Shown here in pieces: positions 1,923-39,992 of a DNA stretch of 39,992 nucleotides. Each line of letters starts with the position of its first letter. Within the stretch, counting starts at the first letter, position 1. Origin of the DNA: a virus. The notes beneath the pieces are model-generated. The model worked only from the letters and a program-made list of their open reading frames with translations. It had not been told where the DNA came from and did no database searches. The position numbers and the translations under genes were made by a program. The stretch covers positions 1-39,992 of the IMG/VR virus record IMGVR_UViG_3300023083_000008. One strand, given 5' to 3'.

Positions 1923-3155
1923 ATGGTCCGTCCGATCTCGACCGCAGTCGGCGTCAGCTTCGCCTACGGCATCAAGTACAAGTCCGGCGTCATCCACAAG
2001 GGCGTCGACTTCTCCCGTGGCCGCGAGGGTGAGCCGGTGCTCACGATGTACGCCGGCACGATCACACACGCGGGCTACGGCGGCTGGGGTCCGGCCTACG
2101 GTCAGCACGTCATCATCCGCTCGACGTTCAACGGCAAAACGAAGTGGCACCTGTACGGCCACCTGAAGACCGAGAACGTCAAGGTCGGCCAGTCGGTCAA
2201 GGCGGGCCAGCAGATCGGCACGTCAGGCGGACGCGCAGGCCAGCGTTACTCCGGCAACAGCACCGGCCCCCACCTACACGCCCAGGTCGGCTACCAGAAC
2301 CGCTACGACCGCTATGAGGACCCGTGGCCGATGATCAACGCCGGGACCAGCGCACCGAAGCCGACGACGCCACCCAAGGGGCAAGAGGTGTGGGCGAGCG
2401 GTCTGTTCTGGAACCTCGCCGCATCCGACAACGTGTACGGCAAGGCGTCATGGGACAAGCGCATGCCCAAGATCATCGAGGCGCTGCGGTACTACGACCG
2501 CGACTTCCTACACCTCGTCGAAGTCGAAACCGAAGGCGCGCAGGGACGAGCGTTCGAGGCCGCGCTGAACAAGGCCGGGTGGGTCGTCGCCGTCGCCGAC
2601 AACCAGCGCATGATCGCCGTCAAGAAAGCATGCAAGGTCGGCCACACCAAAGTCATCACCCTCGACGACCACGGCCCAGCGAAAGACGACAAGCAGATCG
2701 TCATGGCCGAAGTCTGGACGCCCGGCGCCACCAACGCACTGGCTCTCGAGGCCGGCCATTTCGAGTACCGCGACGGTGCCGCCTACGACAAGACCCGCGC
2801 CAACCAGGCCAAGCAGACCAAGGCCGACACCCTCGCATGGGCCGGACGCAACGACATCCCTGCCAACCGTGTCGTGTTCGCCAACGACGAGAACGCGCGC
2901 GTTGGCAACGACAACGCCTGGGGCACCACGTTCCCGAGCATCCGATCCCGATCAAACGTCGTCTACGGAAACGCCAGCTACTCGACCCTCTGCGGCTGGG
3001 ACGGGAAGGCCGACAAGTCGTCCAAGCCCTACGACCCCGACAAAGTTCGCGTCTCCAAGGACCGCCCCATGATCGGCGGCTCCACGTCGCTGAAGTGGCT
3101 CGGCGAGGACATCAGCGACCACCTGCCTGTCCTCTACACGCTCGCCAAGCACTGA
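1923..3155 (+). CDS. Endolysin: M23 peptidase fused to endonuclease/exonuclease/phosphatase-fold domain
   Basis: 410 aa, preceded by AGGAGA. Residues about 20-135 are an M23 (LytM) zinc peptidase: His25-x3-Asp29, His77/His80 and His117-Leu-His119 match the HxxxD and HxH motifs, which would cut peptidoglycan cross-bridges. A Pro/Lys/Thr linker (141-155) follows. Residues about 157-408 carry the signature of the endonuclease/exonuclease/phosphatase superfamily in order: Trp163-Asn164, the DFLHLVE strand ending in catalytic Glu200, His279, Asp322-x-Asn324 and a final Ser398-Asp399-His400. This second domain hydrolyses phosphodiesters (DNA, phospholipid or phosphosugar) in its family; the substrate here is unknown. 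No signal peptide is seen, so export depends on the holin. The holin gene follows after 35 bp. Confidence 0.85.
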   Translation: MVRPISTAVGVSFAYGIKYKSGVIHKGVDFSRGREGEPVLTMYAGTITHAGYGGWGPAYGQHVIIRSTFNGKTKWHLYGHLKTENVKVGQSVKAGQQIGTSGGRAGQRYSGNSTGPHLHAQVGYQNRYDRYEDPWPMINAGTSAPKPTTPPKGQEVWASGLFWNLAASDNVYGKASWDKRMPKIIEALRYYDRDFLHLVEVETEGAQGRAFEAALNKAGWVVAVADNQRMIAVKKACKVGHTKVITLDDHGPAKDDKQIVMAEVWTPGATNALALEAGHFEYRDGAAYDKTRANQAKQTKADTLAWAGRNDIPANRVVFANDENARVGNDNAWGTTFPSIRSRSNVVYGNASYSTLCGWDGKADKSSKPYDPDKVRVSKDRPMIGGSTSLKWLGEDISDHLPVLYTLAKH

Positions 3156-3190: not shown

Positions 3191-3397
3191 ATGGAGAACG
3201 TCCTGCACTACACCAAGGCTCTCGCCGCACTCGTAGCCGCGATCGCCACCTCGCTGCTGACAATCTTCGGCGACGGCGACGTTGCCAAGACGCTGACCGT
3301 CATCATCGCTGTTGCCGGCGTGCTGTCGGTCTACCAGTTCCCCAACGCCGAGGCCGGACCCGACGAGTGGGACCATCTGGACGACGAGCCGGTGTAG
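3191..3397 (+). CDS. Holin (r1t-like, two TM)
   Basis: 68 aa, ATG with AAGGAGA-type ribosome site about 7 nt upstream. Two hydrophobic helices (about 8-26 and 33-49) are separated by a short turn (GDGD) and followed by an acidic tail containing the PNAEAG stretch typical of the actinophage r1t-like holin family. Such proteins assemble in the inner membrane and open holes that let the endolysin reach the wall. It lies directly downstream of the endolysin. The family call rests on TM layout and the tail motif. Confidence 0.8.
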   Translation: MENVLHYTKALAALVAAIATSLLTIFGDGDVAKTLTVIIAVAGVLSVYQFPNAEAGPDEWDHLDDEPV

Positions 3398-7945: not shown

Positions 7946-8352
7946 AGTACGCGCCGTCGAAGCGGTTCGGCGAGTACGTCCGCAAGCTCATGGCTTGCGG
8001 CCACTGGGATGACGCCGAGAGGTCGGATGGCGATCACGTCGCGTGGATCCGGCACAAGGCCACCGGTCTAGAGCTGAGTTACCAGCTGCATGACGGCGGC
8101 AACGACACGAACTCGCCTCGCAACATGGCCCGCGCCGCACAGGACATCTGCGGCTGCAAGTTTATCGAGGCCCGCGGGCGCAAGAGATCCCGCAAGCGGA
8201 TCGAGCAGTACGAGCGCACGCCGCGATCGGCGAAGTCCGAGTTGAAGCGTCTCGCTGAGTTCGAAGCTCGCCGAGAACGCGAGGCCCTCCAACGGGCTAT
8301 CGACCAGCGCAACAGAGACCTCAACAGCATCCGCCGCCTCATGGGCGGCTGA
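7942..8352 (+). CDS. Hypothetical protein with possible HicA-like fold
   Basis: 136 aa, ATGA overlap with the upstream gene. The first 75 residues alternate helix and strand around DHVAWIRHKATGLELSYQLHD, somewhat like the small RNA-binding fold of HicA (a conserved His before beta strands), but the HicA glycine-serine-His signature is absent, so this is only a resemblance. The C-terminus (about 80-135) is a long, highly charged coiled coil rich in Arg and Glu, suited to nucleic-acid binding. No adjacent HicB-like partner is seen. Confidence 0.6.
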   Translation: MKYAPSKRFGEYVRKLMACGHWDDAERSDGDHVAWIRHKATGLELSYQLHDGGNDTNSPRNMARAAQDICGCKFIEARGRKRSRKRIEQYERTPRSAKSELKRLAEFEARREREALQRAIDQRNRDLNSIRRLMGG

Positions 8353-8377
8353 CCCTTGTATCCGATCGGAGCACCTG

Positions 8378-9187
8378 ATGACCGTCGTCAACCACGAGAC
8401 CGGCGAGATCCTCGAGTTCGACACCGCAGCAGCCGAGCGTCGCGCCGAGCGGATCACTCTCCGACTCGACGCCATCGCTGAGAACTACGCACGCGTTCTG
8501 CCCCTAATCCGTGAAGCGATCGAGAAGCGCGACGACATTGCCCTCGGGTACCGCTCCCCCGGCGAGTACGTGTCCGATCGCTTCGGCCAGTCCCTCGCGG
8601 GTCTCGGCGTCGAGGTCCGGCGCGCTGTAGTCGGCGAACTGACAGAGGCCGGACTGTCGACGCGAGCCATTGCTCCCGTGGTCGGCACGTCTCACATGAC
8701 CGTCAAGGCGGACCGCGACGCAGGTGTAAAGCCCTTTACACCTGCACCACAGGCACCCCCGGCCGTGTTGCCCGAGACCAAGGGTCAGGGAGTCGACCAG
8801 CACAAGGCGACTGGGGAGGACTCGCCCACGGTTGGCGAGTCGATGACGCAGGACGGGGAGGACTTCGGGAACCCCCGTCCTGCGATCACCGGCATCGACG
8901 GCAAGACGTACACGCCGCCGAAGCCGCGCCTTGCGCCCGTCGCCAACAGCGCCGAGTGGGACGACCAGGACCGGGCCGAGGAGCTGGCATCCAACCTGGC
9001 CCGCAACCTCTCGCTGACCTACGCGCTGACCAACGCCGATCGCCGAGCCGAATACATCGCCAACTGGTCGCGCGGCATCAAAGACCGCCCGGTTCTCGGG
9101 CACAACTTCGTCACCCCGAAACACATGCGGGCCATCGCCGATGCCCTGCGCACCTTCGCCACCGAATGGGAGCAAGCCAATGTCTGA
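8378..9187 (+). CDS. HTH DNA-binding protein, ParB-like
   Basis: 269 aa. An N-terminal helical region (about 15-90, with GYRSPGEYVSDRFG) is followed by a clear HTH at about 93-113 (LSTRAIAPVVGTSHMTVKAD). Next come a Pro-rich linker and a Gly-Asn-Pro-Arg-Pro region with GIDGKTY, then a helical C-terminus. The GIDGKTYP-like box after an HTH is typical of actinophage ParB-like/HTH proteins. It is an early DNA-binding protein, perhaps for partition, replication or transcription control. The gene contains a perfect inverted repeat just after the HTH codons (8720-8745), which might be its own binding site. Confidence 0.72.
   Translation: MTVVNHETGEILEFDTAAAERRAERITLRLDAIAENYARVLPLIREAIEKRDDIALGYRSPGEYVSDRFGQSLAGLGVEVRRAVVGELTEAGLSTRAIAPVVGTSHMTVKADRDAGVKPFTPAPQAPPAVLPETKGQGVDQHKATGEDSPTVGESMTQDGEDFGNPRPAITGIDGKTYTPPKPRLAPVANSAEWDDQDRAEELASNLARNLSLTYALTNADRRAEYIANWSRGIKDRPVLGHNFVTPKHMRAIADALRTFATEWEQANV
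8720..8745. repeat. Perfect inverted repeat, 11-bp arms, 4-nt centre
   Basis: GCAGGTGTAAA (8720-8730), GCCC, TTTACACCTGC (8735-8745), inside the HTH gene. The half-site TTACACC also occurs in the central near-palindrome of the lysogeny control region (7158-7164). Confidence 0.7.
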
Positions 9188-9686
9188 ACTCGTCAGCATC
9201 GCATTTCAGGATGCCGTCATCGCTGAGTACCGCAAGGCCGTTGCCAGTCGCGGCGACCGCGCCGAAGGCATCAACCGGCAGGATGCTTTCGCCTTCGCGA
9301 ACGAGGCGATCAGAGAGCGCATTCACTCCGGTGAGATCGAGATCCCGATGGATGACGCCATCCATGCTGCGCTCGTGGCAGCCGACAGTCGCGAGGGCCA
9401 GCAGGCCGACAACATCCTCGCAAAGATCGCGCGTGGCGAGATCGGACTGGAGCTTCACCCCGACCCGGTCCTCGATGTAGTCGTGACGCTCGGCGCTGGA
9501 CGTCGCAAGCCCTGGAAGTACGTCACGGCCGACGACATCGCCTCAATGCTCGAACTGCGAAAGCAGAACACCAACTCCGCTCGCCGGGCAGAGCGCCGGT
9601 TCATCAAGAACGCCGAGACCATCTACGACTCGCTGGTCACGGCGGGAACCGTCGGCCAGATGTTCACGGTGACGGCAGCCGCATGA
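9180..9686 (+). CDS. Hypothetical protein, 168 aa
   Basis: The ATG at 9180 overlaps the stop of the HTH gene by 8 bp. The sequence is helical and charged; a segment at about 108-150 (KPWKYVTADDIASMLELRKQ, then SARRAERRFIKNAETIYDSL) looks like a two-helix DNA- or protein-binding module. No family recognised. Its coupling to the HTH gene suggests a shared early function. Confidence 0.65.
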   Translation: MSELVSIAFQDAVIAEYRKAVASRGDRAEGINRQDAFAFANEAIRERIHSGEIEIPMDDAIHAALVAADSREGQQADNILAKIARGEIGLELHPDPVLDVVVTLGAGRRKPWKYVTADDIASMLELRKQNTNSARRAERRFIKNAETIYDSLVTAGTVGQMFTVTAAA

Positions 9687-9799
9687 CACCCCTCACCCTC
9701 ACCATCGCCGCCACCATCCTCGCGGCCAACGTCGCAGTGCTGACGTTTCTGGTCGCTTTCTACGCCTACGAGCTGCTCACCGGGAAGGCTCACTCATGA
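9683..9799 (+). CDS. Tiny membrane protein, 38 aa
   Basis: ATGA overlap upstream and ATGA overlap downstream bracket this 38-codon gene. It is almost entirely one TM helix (about residues 5-32, ending FLVAFYAYELL) with a short tail GKAHS. Probably a single-span inner-membrane peptide; role unknown. Confidence 0.65.
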   Translation: MTPLTLTIAATILAANVAVLTFLVAFYAYELLTGKAHS

Positions 9800-9960
9800 C
9801 CACCATCCCCACCCCCCACACCTGCCGCCACTGCCACCAGCCCATCACCCTGAACACGGACCGCAGCCGTAGGGCGAACCGTTGGGCGTCGTTGCGTATC
9901 AACCCGTTCACCTGCTTGGCGTCGTCGTCGCTGGTGCACGCGCCGGTTGGTGTGGCATGA
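9796..9960 (+). CDS. Tiny zinc-knuckle protein, 54 aa
   Basis: ATGA overlaps on both sides. Cys10-x2-Cys13 with His8, His12 and His14 form a zinc-knuckle-like start; a basic stretch (SRRANRWASLRIN) follows. The second Cys pair of a full ribbon is missing (only Cys40). Function unknown. Confidence 0.55.
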   Translation: MTTIPTPHTCRHCHQPITLNTDRSRRANRWASLRINPFTCLASSSLVHAPVGVA

Positions 9961-10289
9961 GCGCGCACGAGGTCCCGGCTGCTGCGGTCGAGGTTGCGGC
10001 GCGGGACCTACTGGAGTCCGACGCCATGACGGGCGCGGGTGGCGATACCCCGACGCATTACATCGTGGACCCGGAGAACGTCGAGTACCTCGTCAGCACG
10101 ATCATCACCGCCGCCCTTTCCGTCCTCCGCGAGACGTGGGAGGCGCCGATCCGGGCGCTGGTCGACAGCAAGTCGTTCGGTGTCGTGGTCCCTGGCGCTC
10201 GTGAGCGAGACCCGAGCCACAACGGAGCGCATGACGTCGTTTTGGTGTCTGATCTCCGCGCCCTCCTCACCTCGGAGGCGACCTCGTGA
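9957..10289 (+). CDS. Hypothetical protein, 110 aa
   Basis: ATGA overlap fixes the start. A helical N-terminus (AVEVAARDLLESDAM) is followed by a segment with HYIVDPENVEYLVSTIITAAL. The end is less ordered (SFGVVVPGARERDPSHN). No family recognised; part of the early operon. Confidence 0.6.
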   Translation: MSAHEVPAAAVEVAARDLLESDAMTGAGGDTPTHYIVDPENVEYLVSTIITAALSVLRETWEAPIRALVDSKSFGVVVPGARERDPSHNGAHDVVLVSDLRALLTSEATS

Positions 10290-10438
10290 GCGCGTGCGAG
10301 AAGTGCTGGTCCGAGGCGTACTTCCGAGCCCGGACCCGTGGCGGGTTCCAGGCTGACCACTACCGCGACCTGCTCGTCGAGAACGAGTCCAAGCATGCCG
10401 TGACCACCCCGACGACAACCAAGGGGGCGACCTCGTGA
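10286..10438 (+). CDS. Small Cys-x2-Cys protein, 50 aa
   Basis: GTGA overlaps at both ends. The start SACEKCWSEAY (Cys4, Cys7) and the stretch QADHYRDLLVE resemble a small conserved protein found in many actinophage early operons, often annotated only as hypothetical. One Cys pair plus His25 could form half of a zinc site. Function unknown. Confidence 0.7.
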   Translation: MSACEKCWSEAYFRARTRGGFQADHYRDLLVENESKHAVTTPTTTKGATS

Positions 10439-11460
10439 GCACCGACGACACCCGCGAGATCGCCGACCTGATCGACGCCTCGTGCGATGTGCGGATCAAC
10501 AGTTTCGACCGTGAGCGGATCGCAGCGAACGTGGCCGCTCATGTCGCTGCTGCGGTGGCTGAACGGGACGCCGAGATCGAGCGGCTGCGGTTCGAATCCG
10601 AGCAGGCGCGTCTGGCTGCGATCCACGCCGAGGAGTACGCGCGTCACACCGACACTCTGGTCGGGATCATTCGGGACTCGCAGGAGAGGTTGGCGCGGCC
10701 GGGACAACGCCTCGCAGACGTGAAGGAGATCCTTCACCGGCTTCCGCATGCTGCTCGTCAGGAACGGGAAGACCGCCAGCTACGGGACCGGGACAACACG
10801 CCGCTTGCGACGCGCATCGCAGAACGCGCTGACCTTGAGGCTGAGATTCTGCGGTTGAGGACCCTCATTGAAGAGGAGATCGAGACGCCGGCTGAGGCCG
10901 AGCGCGACGAGGCCCGTGCTGCGCTGGGTGCAGTCGCGGCGCTGGCGGACGAGTACGCAGCGAGCCCTTACGTCGAGTACCAGGGCTGGCGGGTCGACGC
11001 CGACCTCCGCGAACGCCTCGCTCCCGTGTCCGGTGCGGTCGCCAAGCCGGACGACGATCACACGAGCGATGGGCGCTGCAAGTACCCGAAGACGTGCGAG
11101 ACCGAGGGGCGTCACACTGCCGGCGCGGTCGAGGAGGCGGCGCCGGAGCTGCTCGTCCTACAGGTCTATCTGCGTGGCGAATGGGTCACGCAGGTTGGCT
11201 ACTCCTGGACTCCCGACGACTTCGCGAAGGCGCACGACGAGGCCGAGACTTCGGTGTTCACGGCGCGCGTGATCCCGGTCTACGCCGCGTCCACCCCGGT
11301 CGCCAAGCACGAGCAGGAGGTGGCGGCGGAGGAACGCGAGCTGGCCGACCTTGTGACGACGTTGCGCCGCCACACCTCCATGACCGGAGATGGCTTTGAC
11401 CGAACCATGCAACGGCTGCTCGAGATCGCCGCCCGCACTCCGGGGAGCGATGCCCGATGA
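10435..11460 (+). CDS. Coiled-coil protein, 341 aa
   Basis: GTG start overlapping the upstream stop. Residues about 25-165 are a long, highly charged coiled coil (many Glu/Arg, for example AERDAEIERLRFESEQARLA). About 200-225 holds a Cys/His cluster (CKYPKTC, then RH). About 235-280 is a beta-like segment (LLVLQVYLRGEWVTQVGYSW), followed by another charged helix. No family recognised. It may be a scaffold or host-interaction protein; the beta segment suggests a small globular domain flanked by coils. Confidence 0.65.
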   Translation: MSTDDTREIADLIDASCDVRINSFDRERIAANVAAHVAAAVAERDAEIERLRFESEQARLAAIHAEEYARHTDTLVGIIRDSQERLARPGQRLADVKEILHRLPHAARQEREDRQLRDRDNTPLATRIAERADLEAEILRLRTLIEEEIETPAEAERDEARAALGAVAALADEYAASPYVEYQGWRVDADLRERLAPVSGAVAKPDDDHTSDGRCKYPKTCETEGRHTAGAVEEAAPELLVLQVYLRGEWVTQVGYSWTPDDFAKAHDEAETSVFTARVIPVYAASTPVAKHEQEVAAEERELADLVTTLRRHTSMTGDGFDRTMQRLLEIAARTPGSDAR

Positions 11461-11901: not shown

Positions 11902-11948
11902 GTTCACCCTCCCCGCCGCTGGACCGCCACAGCTTCACCAAATGCAGA

Positions 11949-11975
11949 AGCCGAGACACCTCTAATGCCTCGGCT
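11949..11975 (+). terminator. Hairpin in early-operon gap
   Basis: AGCCGAG (11949-11955) pairs perfectly with CTCGGCT (11969-11975) around a 13-nt loop. No T run follows, so it may be a weak terminator, an RNA processing point or a 5' stabiliser. It lies about 10 bp before the AAGGAG ribosome site of the 11996 gene. Confidence 0.35.
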
Positions 11976-11995
11976 CCCAACAACAAGGAGTCTAG

Positions 11996-12163
11996 ATGAG
12001 CACCAACCACATCGACATCAGCATCGGACACGGCGACGTTGCCCGCGCGTACCCCGATGACAACGGTGGCGTCGTCATTGTGTCCAGAGCCGACGAGTAC
12101 CTGAGACTCGACGAGACCGTCGTCGACCAGATCGCCAAGCTCGCTTCTCAGAGGGCCGCGTAA
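11996..12163 (+). CDS. Small hypothetical protein, 55 aa
   Basis: ATG with a good AAGGAG site 7 nt upstream. Two beta-like segments (HIDISIGHGDVARAY and GGVVIVSRADEYLRL) and a C-terminal helix suggest a tiny folded domain. Its TAA overlaps the ATG of the methyltransferase (TAATG), so the two are coupled. No family recognised. Confidence 0.6.
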   Translation: MSTNHIDISIGHGDVARAYPDDNGGVVIVSRADEYLRLDETVVDQIAKLASQRAA

Positions 12164-12930
12164 TGGCGTCCCGGCAGAGGCTGCTGGACATGTTCTGCTG
12201 CGAAGGCGGCGCCGGTGTCGGGTATGACCGTGCCGGCTTCGATGTCTACGGCGTCGACATGGCCGGCAAGTTCGCCAAGCGTTACCCGTTCGCTTTTTAT
12301 CGCGGCGATGCGCTGGTTGTCCTGGCCGCATTGGTTGCGGGTGAGGGTATCGAGTTTGTCCGGCATGACGGAGTCGAGGAGACGCTTTATCTCTTCGACT
12401 TTGCAGCGATCCATACCTCGCCCCCTTGCCAGGGATACACGCGGGGAAATGCGGGTCGGGTCACCGATTGGCCGAAGCTCATTCAGCCCGTGCGCGCGCT
12501 GTTGCTTAAGACTGGACTCCCTTACGTCATCGAGAACGTCAAGGACGCCGGCCCCGAGATGGTAGACCCGGTCGGCCTCTGCGGATGCATGTTCGACCTA
12601 TCGGCCGTCGACACGGACGGCGTGACGATTCACCTCCAGCGCCTGCGCCTGTTCGAGACGAACTGGGGCATGACTGCTCCGAGGGTCTGCGATCACTCCA
12701 CCCACGAGTGGGTGGCTGGCGCTTACGGTGGCGCTCGCCGCGACAAGTACGAGGCGAAGTACGTCCGCAAGGGCGGCTACGTCCCGCGCGACAAGGACGT
12801 GGTGAAGCGACTCCTCGGCGTCGAGCACGACATGACGTGGAACGGGCTGTTCGAGTGCATCCCGCCTGCGTACTCAGAGCACATCGGGTCGCAGTTGCTG
12901 GCGCGGATCACGAGCGAGGTGGCCGCATGA
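12163..12930 (+). CDS. C5-cytosine DNA methyltransferase
   Basis: 255 aa. Motif I is at about 7-26 (LLDMFCCEGGAGVGYDRAGF, the SAM pocket); motif IV is SPPCQ at 86-90 with catalytic Cys89; motif VI is VIENV (Glu124, Asn125). QRLRLFE resembles motif VIII, and EHIGSQLL near the end resembles motif X. It transfers methyl groups to cytosine C5. At 255 aa it is short, with a small target-recognition region, as in many phage enzymes. No restriction endonuclease lies nearby, so protection of phage DNA from host restriction is the likely role (inference). Its stop lies next to the stop of the leftward RHH gene. Confidence 0.9.
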   Translation: MASRQRLLDMFCCEGGAGVGYDRAGFDVYGVDMAGKFAKRYPFAFYRGDALVVLAALVAGEGIEFVRHDGVEETLYLFDFAAIHTSPPCQGYTRGNAGRVTDWPKLIQPVRALLLKTGLPYVIENVKDAGPEMVDPVGLCGCMFDLSAVDTDGVTIHLQRLRLFETNWGMTAPRVCDHSTHEWVAGAYGGARRDKYEAKYVRKGGYVPRDKDVVKRLLGVEHDMTWNGLFECIPPAYSEHIGSQLLARITSEVAA

Positions 12931-12931
12931 C

Positions 12932-13081
12932 CTACTTGTGCCGCTTCCCGTACCGCTCCAGGAACTCGCGGACGGCCTGTGAAACGGACTCGCCGCGCTT
13001 CTCTGCTGCCACCTTCGCCGCATCCCACGTCTCGTCAGGGACGCGGATCGCACGGAGGGGAACCCGCCCGTCGTCAGGCAT
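12932..13081 (-). CDS. Ribbon-helix-helix DNA-binding protein, 49 aa
   Basis: Minus strand, from the ATG at 13081, which overlaps the stop of the upstream leftward gene. The pattern VPLRAIRVPDETWDAAKVAA, then KRGESVSQAVREFLERY, is a classic RHH (MetJ/Arc/antitoxin) fold: a short strand that reads DNA followed by two helices. RHH dimers bind palindromes. Two identical perfect palindromes lie in the promoter of this same two-gene cassette (13255-13290), so autoregulation is very likely. Such proteins often serve as antitoxins; the partner here (13074-13238) is not a recognised toxin. Confidence 0.85.
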   Translation of the reverse strand: MPDDGRVPLRAIRVPDETWDAAKVAAEKRGESVSQAVREFLERYGKRHK

Positions 13082-13238
13082 TGATGACCGACCGGAAGCC
13101 AGCGAGGTAGTCAGCGTCGGTGCCGTCGTGGGCCTCCATGGCGGCGAGGCGTTCGGCTGCGAACTGGGCGTCGATGTCGAGCCCAATCTCAGCGGCTTCG
13201 ATTCCCTTGGCGAACTGCATCTTCTGGTACTCGTTCAT
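13074..13238 (-). CDS. Small partner protein of the RHH regulator, 54 aa
   Basis: Minus strand; start at ATG 13238, about 17 bp downstream of the nearest palindrome, with a GAGAGG-like ribosome site. The protein is helical and acidic (KGIEAAEIGLDIDAQFAAERLAAM is mostly helix; read as two runs of under 20 residues). No toxin fold or family recognised. First gene of the leftward cassette, overlapping the RHH gene by 8 bp. Confidence 0.6.
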   Translation of the reverse strand: MNEYQKMQFAKGIEAAEIGLDIDAQFAAERLAAMEAHDGTDADYLAGFRSVINA

Positions 13239-13254
13239 GGTCTTGCCTCTCAGT

Positions 13255-13266
13255 CGGTATATACCG
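13255..13266. promoter_or_regulatory. Operator O1, perfect palindrome CGGTATATACCG
   Basis: 12-bp perfect palindrome directly downstream of the proposed leftward -10 box, so it covers the expected transcription start of the RHH cassette. Confidence 0.8.
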
Positions 13267-13295
13267 AGAGTAGTGCATCGGTATATACCGCGCAA
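13267..13295 (-). promoter_or_regulatory. Leftward promoter of the RHH cassette
   Basis: On the minus strand: TTGCGC (13295-13290), 17-bp spacer, TACTCT (13272-13267). The boxes match consensus only in part, but the spacing is ideal and both palindromes are placed to block it. Confidence 0.5.
13279..13290. promoter_or_regulatory. Operator O2, perfect palindrome CGGTATATACCG
   Basis: Identical to O1; centres are 24 bp apart. It sits in the spacer between the proposed -35 and -10 boxes. Confidence 0.8.
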
Positions 13296-13324
13296 GGGCT
13301 CGACGGAAGAAAGATGGCCAACTC

Positions 13325-13660
13325 ATGACCCGCCTCGACCTGCACACCAACACACCCGACCAGGCCGCAGCCTACGAACGCGCCAACGCCCACGACGACA
13401 GCCCCGGCATGGGTGACGTGGTGGACGAGTGGCCGAGTGTGCGTGACCCGAGAACGCGGGTGTGCGTCGCGCGGTGGGTCAGTCATGGCCGGGTCGAGTT
13501 CGAGTGCTGCGACTACTGCCAGGGGCGCAAGCCGGTCTGCTACTGGGCCGGACGCGATCGCTGCCAACACCATCGCTTCATCGACGATCCCGGCGTCGCA
13601 TTCGACCCGATCGCACGCCGCTTCTACTGCGACGTCTACGAGCAGCAAGTGGCGTCATGA
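13325..13660 (+). CDS. Cys/His-rich protein, 111 aa
   Basis: Rightward transcription resumes here. The protein has Cys47, then FECCDYCQGRKPVC, then CQHHRF and a last Cys near the end (FYCDVYEQ), enough ligands for one or two zinc ions. Trp residues in DEWPSV and ARWVSHG suggest a small folded core. It may bind DNA or protein. No family recognised. ATGA overlap with the next gene. Confidence 0.65.
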   Translation: MTRLDLHTNTPDQAAAYERANAHDDSPGMGDVVDEWPSVRDPRTRVCVARWVSHGRVEFECCDYCQGRKPVCYWAGRDRCQHHRFIDDPGVAFDPIARRFYCDVYEQQVAS

Positions 13661-13761
13661 GCTGGCGATGCCCTCACTGCGGCTACGGGATCAACCAGCA
13701 CCCCGAATCGCGCGGCGCCACCATCTGCCCGCCTGACGACGAACCGAAGGACGACGAATGA
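13657..13761 (+). CDS. Tiny zinc-ribbon peptide, 34 aa
   Basis: ATGA overlaps on both sides. SWRCPHCGYGINQHPESRG, then CPPDD: Cys5-x2-Cys8, His15 and Cys24 look like a minimal zinc ribbon. It is coupled to the exonuclease gene that follows, so a role in recombination is possible but unproven. Confidence 0.6.
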   Translation: MSWRCPHCGYGINQHPESRGATICPPDDEPKDDE

Positions 13762-14588
13762 CTCTCACCGAATACCCCCAGATAGAGCAGGGAAGCGATA
13801 AATGGCACGACCAGAGACGAGGACTGGTCACGGCATCGGTCGTCGGCAAGCTGATCGCGAGCCGCACGCTCGGCGCGATCGACTTCGACTGCCCGTCGTG
13901 TGCCGAGCCGCCCGGTCGGCCGTGCGTGAGCAAGGCCAAGAAGGCTGGCGAGGCACCCGCACCGATCAAGACGATGCACGCCGAACGATCGGCTCACGCG
14001 AAAGAGCGAGCCGTCAAGGTCCTCGAGCCAGCCGACACCGACGAGTCTCGCGGCCTCACTGCTCTCCTGGTCGCGGAACGCATCACCGGCTGGACCGACC
14101 CGACCTACATGTCCGACGACATGTATCGAGGTCACCTCATCGAGCCGATCGCCCGCGACCTCTACTCCGAGAAGTACGCGCCGGCCAAGGAAATCGGGTT
14201 CATGGTCCGCAGCGAGCCGGATTGGACTCTGGGCTACTCCCCCGACGGTCTGATCGGTGACGGCGGCCTGCTGGAAGTGAAAGCGCCAAGGGCCAAGACG
14301 CACCTGAGAACGATCCTGTCCGGCGAAGTCCCTACCTACCACATGCCGCAGATCCAAGCCGGGTTACTCGTGACGGGCCGCAAGTACCTCGACTTCGTCA
14401 GCTACTACGGCGGGCTCCCGATGTTCGTGAAGCGCGTCCTGCCCGATCAGGACTGGTTCGACGCCATCACCGACGCCTGCATCGCCTTCGAGCAGACCGC
14501 CGATCGGATGCTCGCCGACTACGAGAACAAGACCACCGGATTCGCTCAGACCGAGCGGTTCATCGACGCCATCGAAATCAGGATCTGA
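13758..14588 (+). CDS. YqaJ/lambda-exonuclease-type recombinase nuclease with zinc-finger insertion
   Basis: 276 aa. PD-(D/E)xK nuclease of the YqaJ viral recombinase family: the N-terminal QGSDKWHDQRRGLVTAS box, RGHLIEP (Glu129), SPDG with Asp163, LLEVK with Glu173-Lys175, and the MPQIQAGLL helix with Gln198. It would digest one strand of double-stranded ends to start single-strand annealing recombination. Between the first helix and the catalytic core, residues 45-77 carry Cys45-x2-Cys48-x7-Cys56-x17-His74, matching the small phage zinc-binding module with a CPxC, PGxPC and HxxR pattern; this is an insertion in the nuclease. Coupled to the next gene, probably its annealing partner. Confidence 0.87.
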   Translation: MTLTEYPQIEQGSDKWHDQRRGLVTASVVGKLIASRTLGAIDFDCPSCAEPPGRPCVSKAKKAGEAPAPIKTMHAERSAHAKERAVKVLEPADTDESRGLTALLVAERITGWTDPTYMSDDMYRGHLIEPIARDLYSEKYAPAKEIGFMVRSEPDWTLGYSPDGLIGDGGLLEVKAPRAKTHLRTILSGEVPTYHMPQIQAGLLVTGRKYLDFVSYYGGLPMFVKRVLPDQDWFDAITDACIAFEQTADRMLADYENKTTGFAQTERFIDAIEIRI

Positions 14589-16981: not shown

Positions 16982-17259
16982 CCCCCGAAAAAGCCCAAGC
17001 TCTCCTAGACGACTACACCTTCATGCGCGACACCGGCGAGACCCGCGAGAACGCAGCACGCCGCTTCGGATGCTCGCTGAGCACGCTCGACGGGAGGCTT
17101 GCTCGGGCGCGGAAAGTGGTCCGAGAAAGCGTGTCCGCGACCCCGGAAAACGCCTCGAATGACGGTAGAATATACGTGACAACTAAAGACGGCTCCGGCC
17201 ATGTGGTGGAACACATGGGGAACCCGGAGCCTGACCACTATCAAGGAGTGGCTTCGTGA
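16978..17259 (+). CDS. HTH protein, sigma-region-4-like, 93 aa
   Basis: Residues about 5-45 form a compact HTH (AQALLDDYTFMRDTG, then NAARRFGCSLSTLDGRLAR), like sigma-70 region 4 or a small transposase-type HTH. The C-terminal half (NDGRIYVTTKDGSGHVVEHM) is beta-like. Its mRNA is unusually AT-rich around 17165-17185. GTGA overlap with the methyltransferase gene that follows. Likely an early transcription or replication regulator. Confidence 0.65.
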   Translation: MTPEKAQALLDDYTFMRDTGETRENAARRFGCSLSTLDGRLARARKVVRESVSATPENASNDGRIYVTTKDGSGHVVEHMGNPEPDHYQGVAS

Positions 17260-18029
17260 ATCATACGCCCTATTTCTCAGACGAGAGCGTGACTCTCTAC
17301 CTCGGCTCGTGCGAGGAAATCCTCCCCGCACTCGAGCCGGTTGACCACATCATCACCGACCCGCCGTACAGCGCCCACGTCCACGGCAACGCACGTTCAT
17401 CCCGCATGGAGTCTGCCAACGAGCGAGGCGGTCAGTACGAGTCCGACACTCGCCGCAACGTCGACCTGGGTTTCGAGCACCTGTCGACCGAGCTCCGGGC
17501 ACTCTGTGCCGAGCAGTTCGCCCGCCTCGCTAGAAGATGGGTGCTTGTCTTCTCTGACGTTGAGTCCGACTATCTCTGGCGCGAGGACATGGTCGCAATG
17601 GGGCTGGACTACGTGCGAACCGGAGCGTGGCACAAGGTCGGCTCGACGCCGCAGTTCAGCGGCGATCGGCCCGCGACCGCCTTTGAGGCCATCACCATTT
17701 GCCACCCCAAGGGTAAGAAGAAGTGGAACGGCGGCGGGTCGCACGCATGGTGGTCGGTGCCGATCGTGCTGGACCGCTCACGCAAGGGCAGCGGTCGCCT
17801 GCATCCCACGCAGAAGCCGCTACCTCTCATGGAGGCGTTGGTCGACCAGTTCACCGACGCTGGCGACACCATCCTCGACCCGTTCGGCGGGAGCGGCACG
17901 ACCGCACTCGCAGCGGCCGAAGCGGGGCGCAAGTGCATCGTCATCGAACGCGATGAGAAGCACGCCGAGACCATCACCAAACGCATCCAGCAGAGACGGT
18001 TCGCGCTGGACTTTGGGGGTGTCGCATGA
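17256..18029 (+). CDS. DNA N6-adenine/N4-cytosine methyltransferase (DPPY type)
   Basis: 257 aa from GTG. The catalytic motif IV, DPPY (35-38), comes first, and the SAM-binding motif ILDPFGGSGTT (206-216) near the end, the order of beta-class enzymes. HPTQKP (183-188) is the typical motif X before the SAM site. It methylates an exocyclic amino group in DNA; the target sequence cannot be read here. No restriction partner is near. With the C5 enzyme at 12163, the phage carries two orphan methyltransferases, likely for anti-restriction. ATGA overlap with the next gene. Confidence 0.92.
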   Translation: MNHTPYFSDESVTLYLGSCEEILPALEPVDHIITDPPYSAHVHGNARSSRMESANERGGQYESDTRRNVDLGFEHLSTELRALCAEQFARLARRWVLVFSDVESDYLWREDMVAMGLDYVRTGAWHKVGSTPQFSGDRPATAFEAITICHPKGKKKWNGGGSHAWWSVPIVLDRSRKGSGRLHPTQKPLPLMEALVDQFTDAGDTILDPFGGSGTTALAAAEAGRKCIVIERDEKHAETITKRIQQRRFALDFGGVA

Positions 18030-39160: not shown

Positions 39161-39992
39161 ATGGCTTTTCCCGCTGGCGTCATCACGCGCCCGGTTACGT
39201 TCGGTCCCGCGTTCGAGCTTGAAGACGGCGACGTCGCAGGCATGACGGTCGCGTTCAAGGCGACCCGTCCTGGCGTGCTGTGGATGGAGACCGGTTCGCC
39301 GGCCGTGTCGGTGGCGATCACCCGCAACGCCAACGATGGTGTTGAGCAGACCGTTTGGTTGCCGGTGACCGATCAGGCGGGCTGGGGCGACGGTGACGGC
39401 AACGAGATCGTCCCCGGTGAGGATGGGCACGTCTTCCTGTATTCCGTGTCGATCGTGTTCACGCAGGACGGCCGCACGATCCCTGGCGCACAGCCGCGGT
39501 CCAAGACGATCGCGATCCCGACCGGCGATTTGTCCCCGTTGGATCTGGACAAGATCATTCCGCTCACATCGCCTGGTGGCACCGTTGTGTCGGTGCCTGA
39601 CATCTGGTCGGGCCAGGTCGCAGCGGCTGAGGCTGCTGCGTTGGCGGCCCAGGCTGCGGTCATCGACTCTGCGGAGTTCGTCGGCGGCGAGCTGGCGGAC
39701 CCGGCGAGCCCGGCGCGGGAGGTCCTCGACCCGCTTCTTACTGCCAAGCAACTGGCGGGCCTGACATTGCCAGGTGACCAGCGTGATGCCGCTGACGCGC
39801 GCGTGCGCACGGTCGGTGACGCCCGGTTCGCCCGGCCCATGTCCAACCTGTCTGTGTCGCTCGGTGACTCGACCGTCGCGTACAACGGCATCGGCTCCCC
39901 GAGCGCGATGGGCGACAACTGGTTCAACCAGCTCTGCGCCCTGTCGAACGGGCGCATCCTCAACGGCGGCAAGTTCGCCACCGGGGGTTTCA
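39161..39992 (+). CDS. Tail fibre with SGNH-hydrolase-type domain (cut by window end)
   Basis: ATG 39161 with AGGAG at 39151-39155; 277 codons are visible and the frame is still open at 39992. Residues 1-130 are beta-rich (fibre attachment), about 155-175 is an Ala-rich coiled coil (QVAAAEAAALAAQAAV), and from about residue 235 SVSLGDSTVAYNG carries the Gly-Asp-Ser of SGNH-hydrolase block I; NGGKFATGG may start block II. Such domains de-acylate cell-wall or envelope sugars during attachment. The catalytic Asp-His near the C-terminus would lie outside this window or, if the molecule is circular, before the fragment at 2-241. Confidence 0.8.
   Translation, partial: MAFPAGVITRPVTFGPAFELEDGDVAGMTVAFKATRPGVLWMETGSPAVSVAITRNANDGVEQTVWLPVTDQAGWGDGDGNEIVPGEDGHVFLYSVSIVFTQDGRTIPGAQPRSKTIAIPTGDLSPLDLDKIIPLTSPGGTVVSVPDIWSGQVAAAEAAALAAQAAVIDSAEFVGGELADPASPAREVLDPLLTAKQLAGLTLPGDQRDAADARVRTVGDARFARPMSNLSVSLGDSTVAYNGIGSPSAMGDNWFNQLCALSNGRILNGGKFATGGF

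Follow-up and report, generated by a model that had tools for sequence, protein, structure and literature searches.

What does an endolysin gain from a second enzyme that may act on something other than peptidoglycan? The question is raised by the gene at positions 1923-3155, for which a sequence-only reading had proposed a zinc peptidase of the M23 type fused to a domain of the endonuclease/exonuclease/phosphatase (EEP) superfamily (DNase I/exonuclease III; PF03372). Our analysis shows that the fusion of an M23 and an EEP-type domain in this endolysin is real and unusual for an endolysin, and comparisons at the sequence level strongly support the assignment of the second domain to the EEP superfamily. 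What this domain may cut is a matter of probabilities, which are weighed below.

The endolysin gene and its phage

The window analyzed here is a whole IMG/VR record of 39,992 bases and encodes terminase, portal, capsid protease, major capsid, and tail proteins. Given these structural genes and an integrase encoded near a tRNA-Trp gene, it appears to represent a temperate tailed phage. When the two ends of the record (39161-39992 and 5-241) are put together, the reading frame is not continuous, which makes the record either a fragment or a sequence that is a few bases off. The nearest phages differ from protein to protein (Gordonia and Mycobacterium phages for the portal, Microbacterium phages for one tail protein, and Streptomyces, Brevibacterium, and Propionibacterium phages for another), and the host would be actinobacterial, with no finer placement. 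The lysin and its surroundings comprise the following features:

585-884, + strand: membrane protein with two predicted transmembrane (TM) segments, possible holin (hydropathy; no Pfam match)
887-1108, + strand: small protein with one TM segment, the remainder coiled-coil-looking (hydropathy; coiled-coil by eye)
1098-1859, + strand: collagen-like protein with an N-terminal TM anchor, upstream of the lysin (Pfam Collagen, E=1.6e-9; PHROG collagen-like minor tail; hydropathy)
1923-3155, + strand: endolysin gene, M23 peptidase plus Pro/Lys linker plus EEP-type domain, 410 aa (ORF, Pfam, EEP profile, residue check)
1992-2300, + strand: M23 peptidase domain, aa 24-126, with ligands His25, Asp29, and His119, along with His80 and His117 (Pfam PF01551, PDB matches)
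2331-2390, + strand: linker, aa 137-156, Pro/Lys/Thr-rich (read from the translation)
3191-3397, + strand: 68-aa protein with two TM segments, likely holin (TM prediction; no Pfam match)

Gene order and TM predictions give the lysin the placement of an endolysin, that is, a peptidoglycan hydrolase gene after the tail genes and next to small holin-like membrane genes. The collagen-like protein sits between two of the small membrane proteins and the lysin. The lysin frame runs from an ATG start to a TGA stop through 410 codons without internal stops, and GC content at the third codon position is 0.90 in the M23 half and 0.88 in the second half. Because both halves share the same coding bias, the frame is a single gene rather than a mis-joined one, which bears out the proposed fusion of an M23 peptidase and a second domain in one intact protein.

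Peptidase_M23 (PF01551) is the sole Pfam domain in the 410-aa ORF (aa 24-126; E=3.5e-18, 66 bits versus a cut-off of 28.7), and PDB sequence matches of this half include LytM and lysostaphin. The zinc ligand pattern HxxxD plus HxH is present as His25/Asp29 and His117-x-His119, exactly at the residue numbers first reported, with His80 as an additional histidine. An N-terminal M23 domain is likewise found in actinobacteriophage proteins annotated as lysin or endolysin, among them those of Gordonia phage OhMyWard, Rhodococcus phage BobbyDazzler, and Mycobacterium phage Oosterbaan (33% identity to the window lysin in the best of these three), but no match covers 80% of the window lysin, and the listed matches stop at about residue 200 or earlier.

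Membership of the second domain in the EEP superfamily

Alignments with EEP proteins place the following features in the second half of the lysin:

2391-3152, + strand: EEP-type domain, aa 157-410, approximately 250 aa (independent EEP profile)
2412-2414, + strand: Asn164, at the ExoIII Asn7 position (EEP alignments, residue check)
2520-2522, + strand: Glu200, at the ExoIII Glu34 position, metal ligand (EEP alignments, residue check)
2757-2759, + strand: His279, at the ExoIII Tyr109/DNase I His134 position (EEP alignments, profile alignment)
2886-2894, + strand: Asp322-Glu-Asn324, the GDxN motif, here N-D-E-N (profile alignment, residue check)
3039-3041, + strand: Asp373, at the ExoIII Asp229 position (EEP alignments, residue check)
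3114-3122, + strand: Ser398-Asp399-His400, the catalytic SDH (EEP alignments, profile alignment)

The signature residues originally listed, Trp163-Asn164, Glu200, His279, Asp322-x-Asn324, and Ser398-Asp399-His400, all occur in order and under those numbers. To these the alignments add Asp373, which lies in 'DPDKVRVS' and corresponds to the aspartate of the 'IDxxxxS' motif in other EEPs. The domain retains the catalytic N, E, H/Y, D-x-N, D, and D-H in EEP order and spacing and departs from the EEP consensus in having LVE for the canonical LQE and NDEN for GDxN. At what we take to be the catalytic positions of Escherichia coli ExoIII, the letters are N, E, Y, D, N, D, D, and H. The domain shares the same eight catalytic positions, their order and spacing, and an independent profile match with the PF03372 superfamily (ExoIII/XthA, YbhP, YafD, DNase I, and TDP2), but differs from its members in lying below Pfam detection, in the LVE and NDEN changes, and in sharing a phage protein with a peptidoglycan hydrolase.

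Of the 15 proteins behind the EEP profile, plasmids supplied eleven (from four records), E. coli K-12 supplied three (XthA, YbhP, and YafD), and a gut phage contig supplied one; neither the window lysin nor P0002, the lysin of a related phage described below, was among them. Extraction of the references required (G/A)D(F/M/L/W/Y)N plus (S/T)DH, a combination to which the window domain does not fully conform; loci L148 and L153 were dropped before profile building (motif extraction gave no sequence), and L154, below the Pfam cut-off, was left out. The profile scored the window domain at 21.8 bits, a value reached by none of 2,000 shuffled sequences (best, 13.3 bits). When 2,076 ORFs (120 codons or longer, 130 sources) were ranked by the profile, the window lysin came first (19.2 bits, E=1.2e-4) and P0002 second (13.8 bits, E=0.0055), followed by an ORF with E=0.33. 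With hhalign, the match between profile and window domain had a probability of 83% and a score of 43.8, whereas 200 shuffled sequences scored 19.6 at most; the runner-up among 66 window ORFs scored 20.7. Held-out reference EEPs scored between 39.9 and 221 bits, and the window domain is thus best regarded as a remote EEP member, because its score falls below every one of the 15. Profiles of XthA-like and other EEP subgroups were also compared on the window domain; neither clearly wins, and the subfamily therefore does not tell the substrate.

Direct searches were negative. The C-terminal domain alone had no Pfam match at E up to 10 (the PF03372 gathering score was not reached), no significant PHROGs match (best E=0.31), and no significant match among NCBIfam or PDB sequences; no homologue was found in phages (a single chance match, E=8), plasmids, viral_contigs, or genome_contigs, or when viral_contigs was searched with the whole 410-aa protein. 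Since EEPs are very divergent, such missing matches are not strong evidence against membership: a PDB search with E. coli YafD gave no chain up to E=0.1, and one with YbhP gave a single chain, at E=0.0056. A scan for an M23-linker-EEP pattern, non-exhaustive because the pattern fixed one proline codon, yielded at least 119 stretches, one of which carried the pattern in one open frame and was not M23 by eye; PF03372 occurred in 0 of 50 other virus records picked from these stretches. EEP domains are uncommon in phages. Three matches to the pattern (I/L/V)-(S/T)-DHLPV were judged to be due to chance.

Structure prediction was of low confidence. Two single-sequence AlphaFold2 runs gave mean pLDDT values of 32 and 35 (pTM of 0.30 for the latter model), and in these models residues 161-234 form strand-helix-strand-helix-strand-strand, which is the order of the first half of EEPs. 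A Foldseek search with the pLDDT 35 model placed TDP2 at rank 1 with E=0.026, with nothing at E≤0.001, and EEPs, including DNase1L3 and an AP endonuclease, made up 22 of the best 50 rows for this low-quality model. VIA-align on the low-confidence model put DAM methyltransferases level with TDP2 in a mixed list that also contained IF3, with matches mainly to model residues 1-87, and the full-length low-confidence model retrieved no EEP above rank 6. Overall, the EEP assignment put forward in the sequence-only reading holds up well at the sequence level, being supported by sequence profiles, conserved catalytic positions, and a parallel case in a related phage.

The lysin of a related phage

One close relative, IMGVR_UViG_3300023082_000259, is linked to the window by a tail protein with 65% identity and by downstream tail genes with 51-79% identity over the aligned parts; tail proteins retrieved from viral_contigs only this record and a distant relative, L007, and from genome_contigs none. 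The lysin slot of the close relative is occupied by P0002, a protein of 417 aa composed of an N-terminal domain, a Pro/Lys linker, and a C-terminal EEP domain. The N-terminus is M15-like by motif (HxxxxxxD, HxH) and has no Pfam match, and the C-terminal domain aligns to positions 2-207 of the 225-position PF03372 (Exo_endo_phos) profile, at E=0.013 against all of Pfam and E=5.3e-5 with few records searched, its 15.7 bits lying below the curated cut-off of 24.5.

By motif, the M23 front end has no relation to the M15-like one, and BLASTP and hhalign aligned the two C-terminal domains no better than chance. Both domains nevertheless retain the eight catalytic positions in the same order, with successive spacings (window/P0002) of 36/32, 79/74, 43/36, 2/2, 49/52, 26/25, and 1/1. 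P0002 resembles the window lysin in genomic slot, linker, C-terminal EEP domain, freedom from TM segments, and adjoining small membrane proteins, but differs in its front end, assigned by motif only, and in an EEP domain from another subfamily. The search for the same fusion in other phages, which the earlier reading had suggested, turned up this EEP-carrying lysin with a different front end. It is an evenly balanced proposition that some actinobacterial phages each acquired, independently, a different EEP phosphodiesterase to serve as the second endolysin domain, joined to different peptidoglycan hydrolases. No description of an endolysin-EEP fusion was found in the open-access literature, a body that excludes subscription papers and in which slashed family names are unsearchable.

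Two further matches to the EEP domain of P0002 were rejected as chance, namely lysin A of Arthrobacter phage Waltz (E=4), in which the match crosses stop codons, and a protein of Vibrio phage 15E36.1 (E=2), which reads as a terminase by eye. The N-terminal domain of P0002 is 37.8% identical to a hypothetical gene of Dulem virus 32 (L159:2372-3178) that is located shortly before an integrase gene, has similar His/Asp motifs by eye, and has a C-terminus too short for an EEP domain; the domain common to both is probably an unrecognized lysin domain. Upstream of P0002, positions 11941-13854 of the same record encode a tail protein that is SGNH-hydrolase-like by eye (GHS, GIHYN) and has no Pfam match. 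HNH_3 is absent from both the window phage and this relative.

Candidate substrates and role in lysis

We tentatively favor an endolysin made of two enzymes, an M23 peptidase and a divalent-metal-dependent EEP phosphodiesterase with DNA as substrate. The M23 domain would, judging from its family, cut the peptide cross-links of peptidoglycan. The C-terminal domain is likely to be catalytically active, because the eight catalytic positions are retained in two domains that cannot otherwise be aligned. Hydropathy predicts no TM segment in the lysin, and small membrane proteins surround it, as in the sister phage; on these grounds the lysin would probably wait in the cytoplasm and be freed in the ordinary holin-dependent manner by a neighboring small membrane protein. 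Once the cell opens, the EEP domain would cut up the host chromosome, making the lysate less viscous and releasing the virions. DNA is narrowly the best candidate substrate, closely followed by envelope polymers, for instance teichoic acids. It is favored because the presence of two EEP subfamilies in the same slot suggests a substrate that is alike in every host; most described bacterial EEPs are nucleases, and TDP2, a DNA-processing EEP that heads the Foldseek list for the low-quality model, may also count toward DNA. Against this, the cytoplasmic presence of a general DNase would put unpackaged phage DNA at risk; speculatively, the domain could be kept inactive there, for example through a requirement for Ca2+ or Mg2+ at extracellular concentrations.

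Less probable, though a real contender, is activity on a phosphodiester polymer of the envelope, be it wall teichoic acid, lipoteichoic acid, or a similar glycopolymer, which would be stripped so that M23 reaches the peptidoglycan. Such a wall substrate would spare phage DNA in the cytoplasm, and the domain follows a linker, where endolysins carry wall-directed domains. Bacillus subtilis PhoD acts on teichoic acid, and in the distant relative L007 a homologous DUF5047 tail protein (8200-10587; E=1.9e-25) bears at its N-terminus a PhoD-like phosphatase domain (PF09423, E=1.4e-19). No EEP enzyme is known to cut teichoic acid, and the occurrence of two unrelated EEP subfamilies in related phages speaks, if mildly, against a special substrate. 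The tail modules of enterococcal phages carry GDPD domains for which an attack on teichoic acid is proposed (PMC10194240). The tail lysins with GDPD or PhoD domains likewise place a phosphodiesterase domain in a wall-attacking or tail protein, but their folds are different and they are virion tail proteins, not endolysins. The phosphodiester of the mycolic/arabinogalactan envelope that the sequence-only reading had entertained is unsupported, because it depends on an unproven host; the best-matching phages span several actinobacterial genera.

It is improbable that the domain is an EEP derivative that is catalytically dead and serves cell-wall binding: it occupies the place of a binding domain and some consensus residues are altered (LVE, NDEN), but neither lysin has lost any of the eight catalytic positions, even though the sequences cannot otherwise be aligned. 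A phospholipase C or sphingomyelinase-like enzyme acting on the membrane during lysis is very doubtful. The EEP superfamily includes such enzymes, and the protein would meet the membrane once holins open it, but the holins open it already, and no membrane-binding hairpin was recognized by eye. Just as doubtful is a domain outside the EEP superfamily with a coincidental or convergent motif order, which would suit the lack of direct family matches (Pfam, PHROGs, NCBIfam, PDB sequences), the low-confidence model, and the other folds in the top VIA-align rows, but is contradicted by the profile, shuffle, and hhalign tests, by the EEP domain of P0002, and, as far as the models can be trusted, by the helix/strand order of residues 161-234.

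Classification of the enzymatic domains of endolysins follows the peptidoglycan bond that is cut (PMC8310338). If different EEP phosphodiesterases were indeed recruited independently, these lysins would form an endolysin class that cuts a non-peptidoglycan phosphodiester, in host DNA or a teichoic-acid-like polymer, at lysis. A lysin with such a second enzyme would widen the meaning of 'lysis enzyme', would offer a ready-made two-activity enzyme, and would raise the testable question of how the phage shields its own genome from a possible DNase. The window also carries two DNA methyltransferase genes (12163-12930 and 17256-18029; PHROG matches), which could bear on guarding phage DNA against a DNase.
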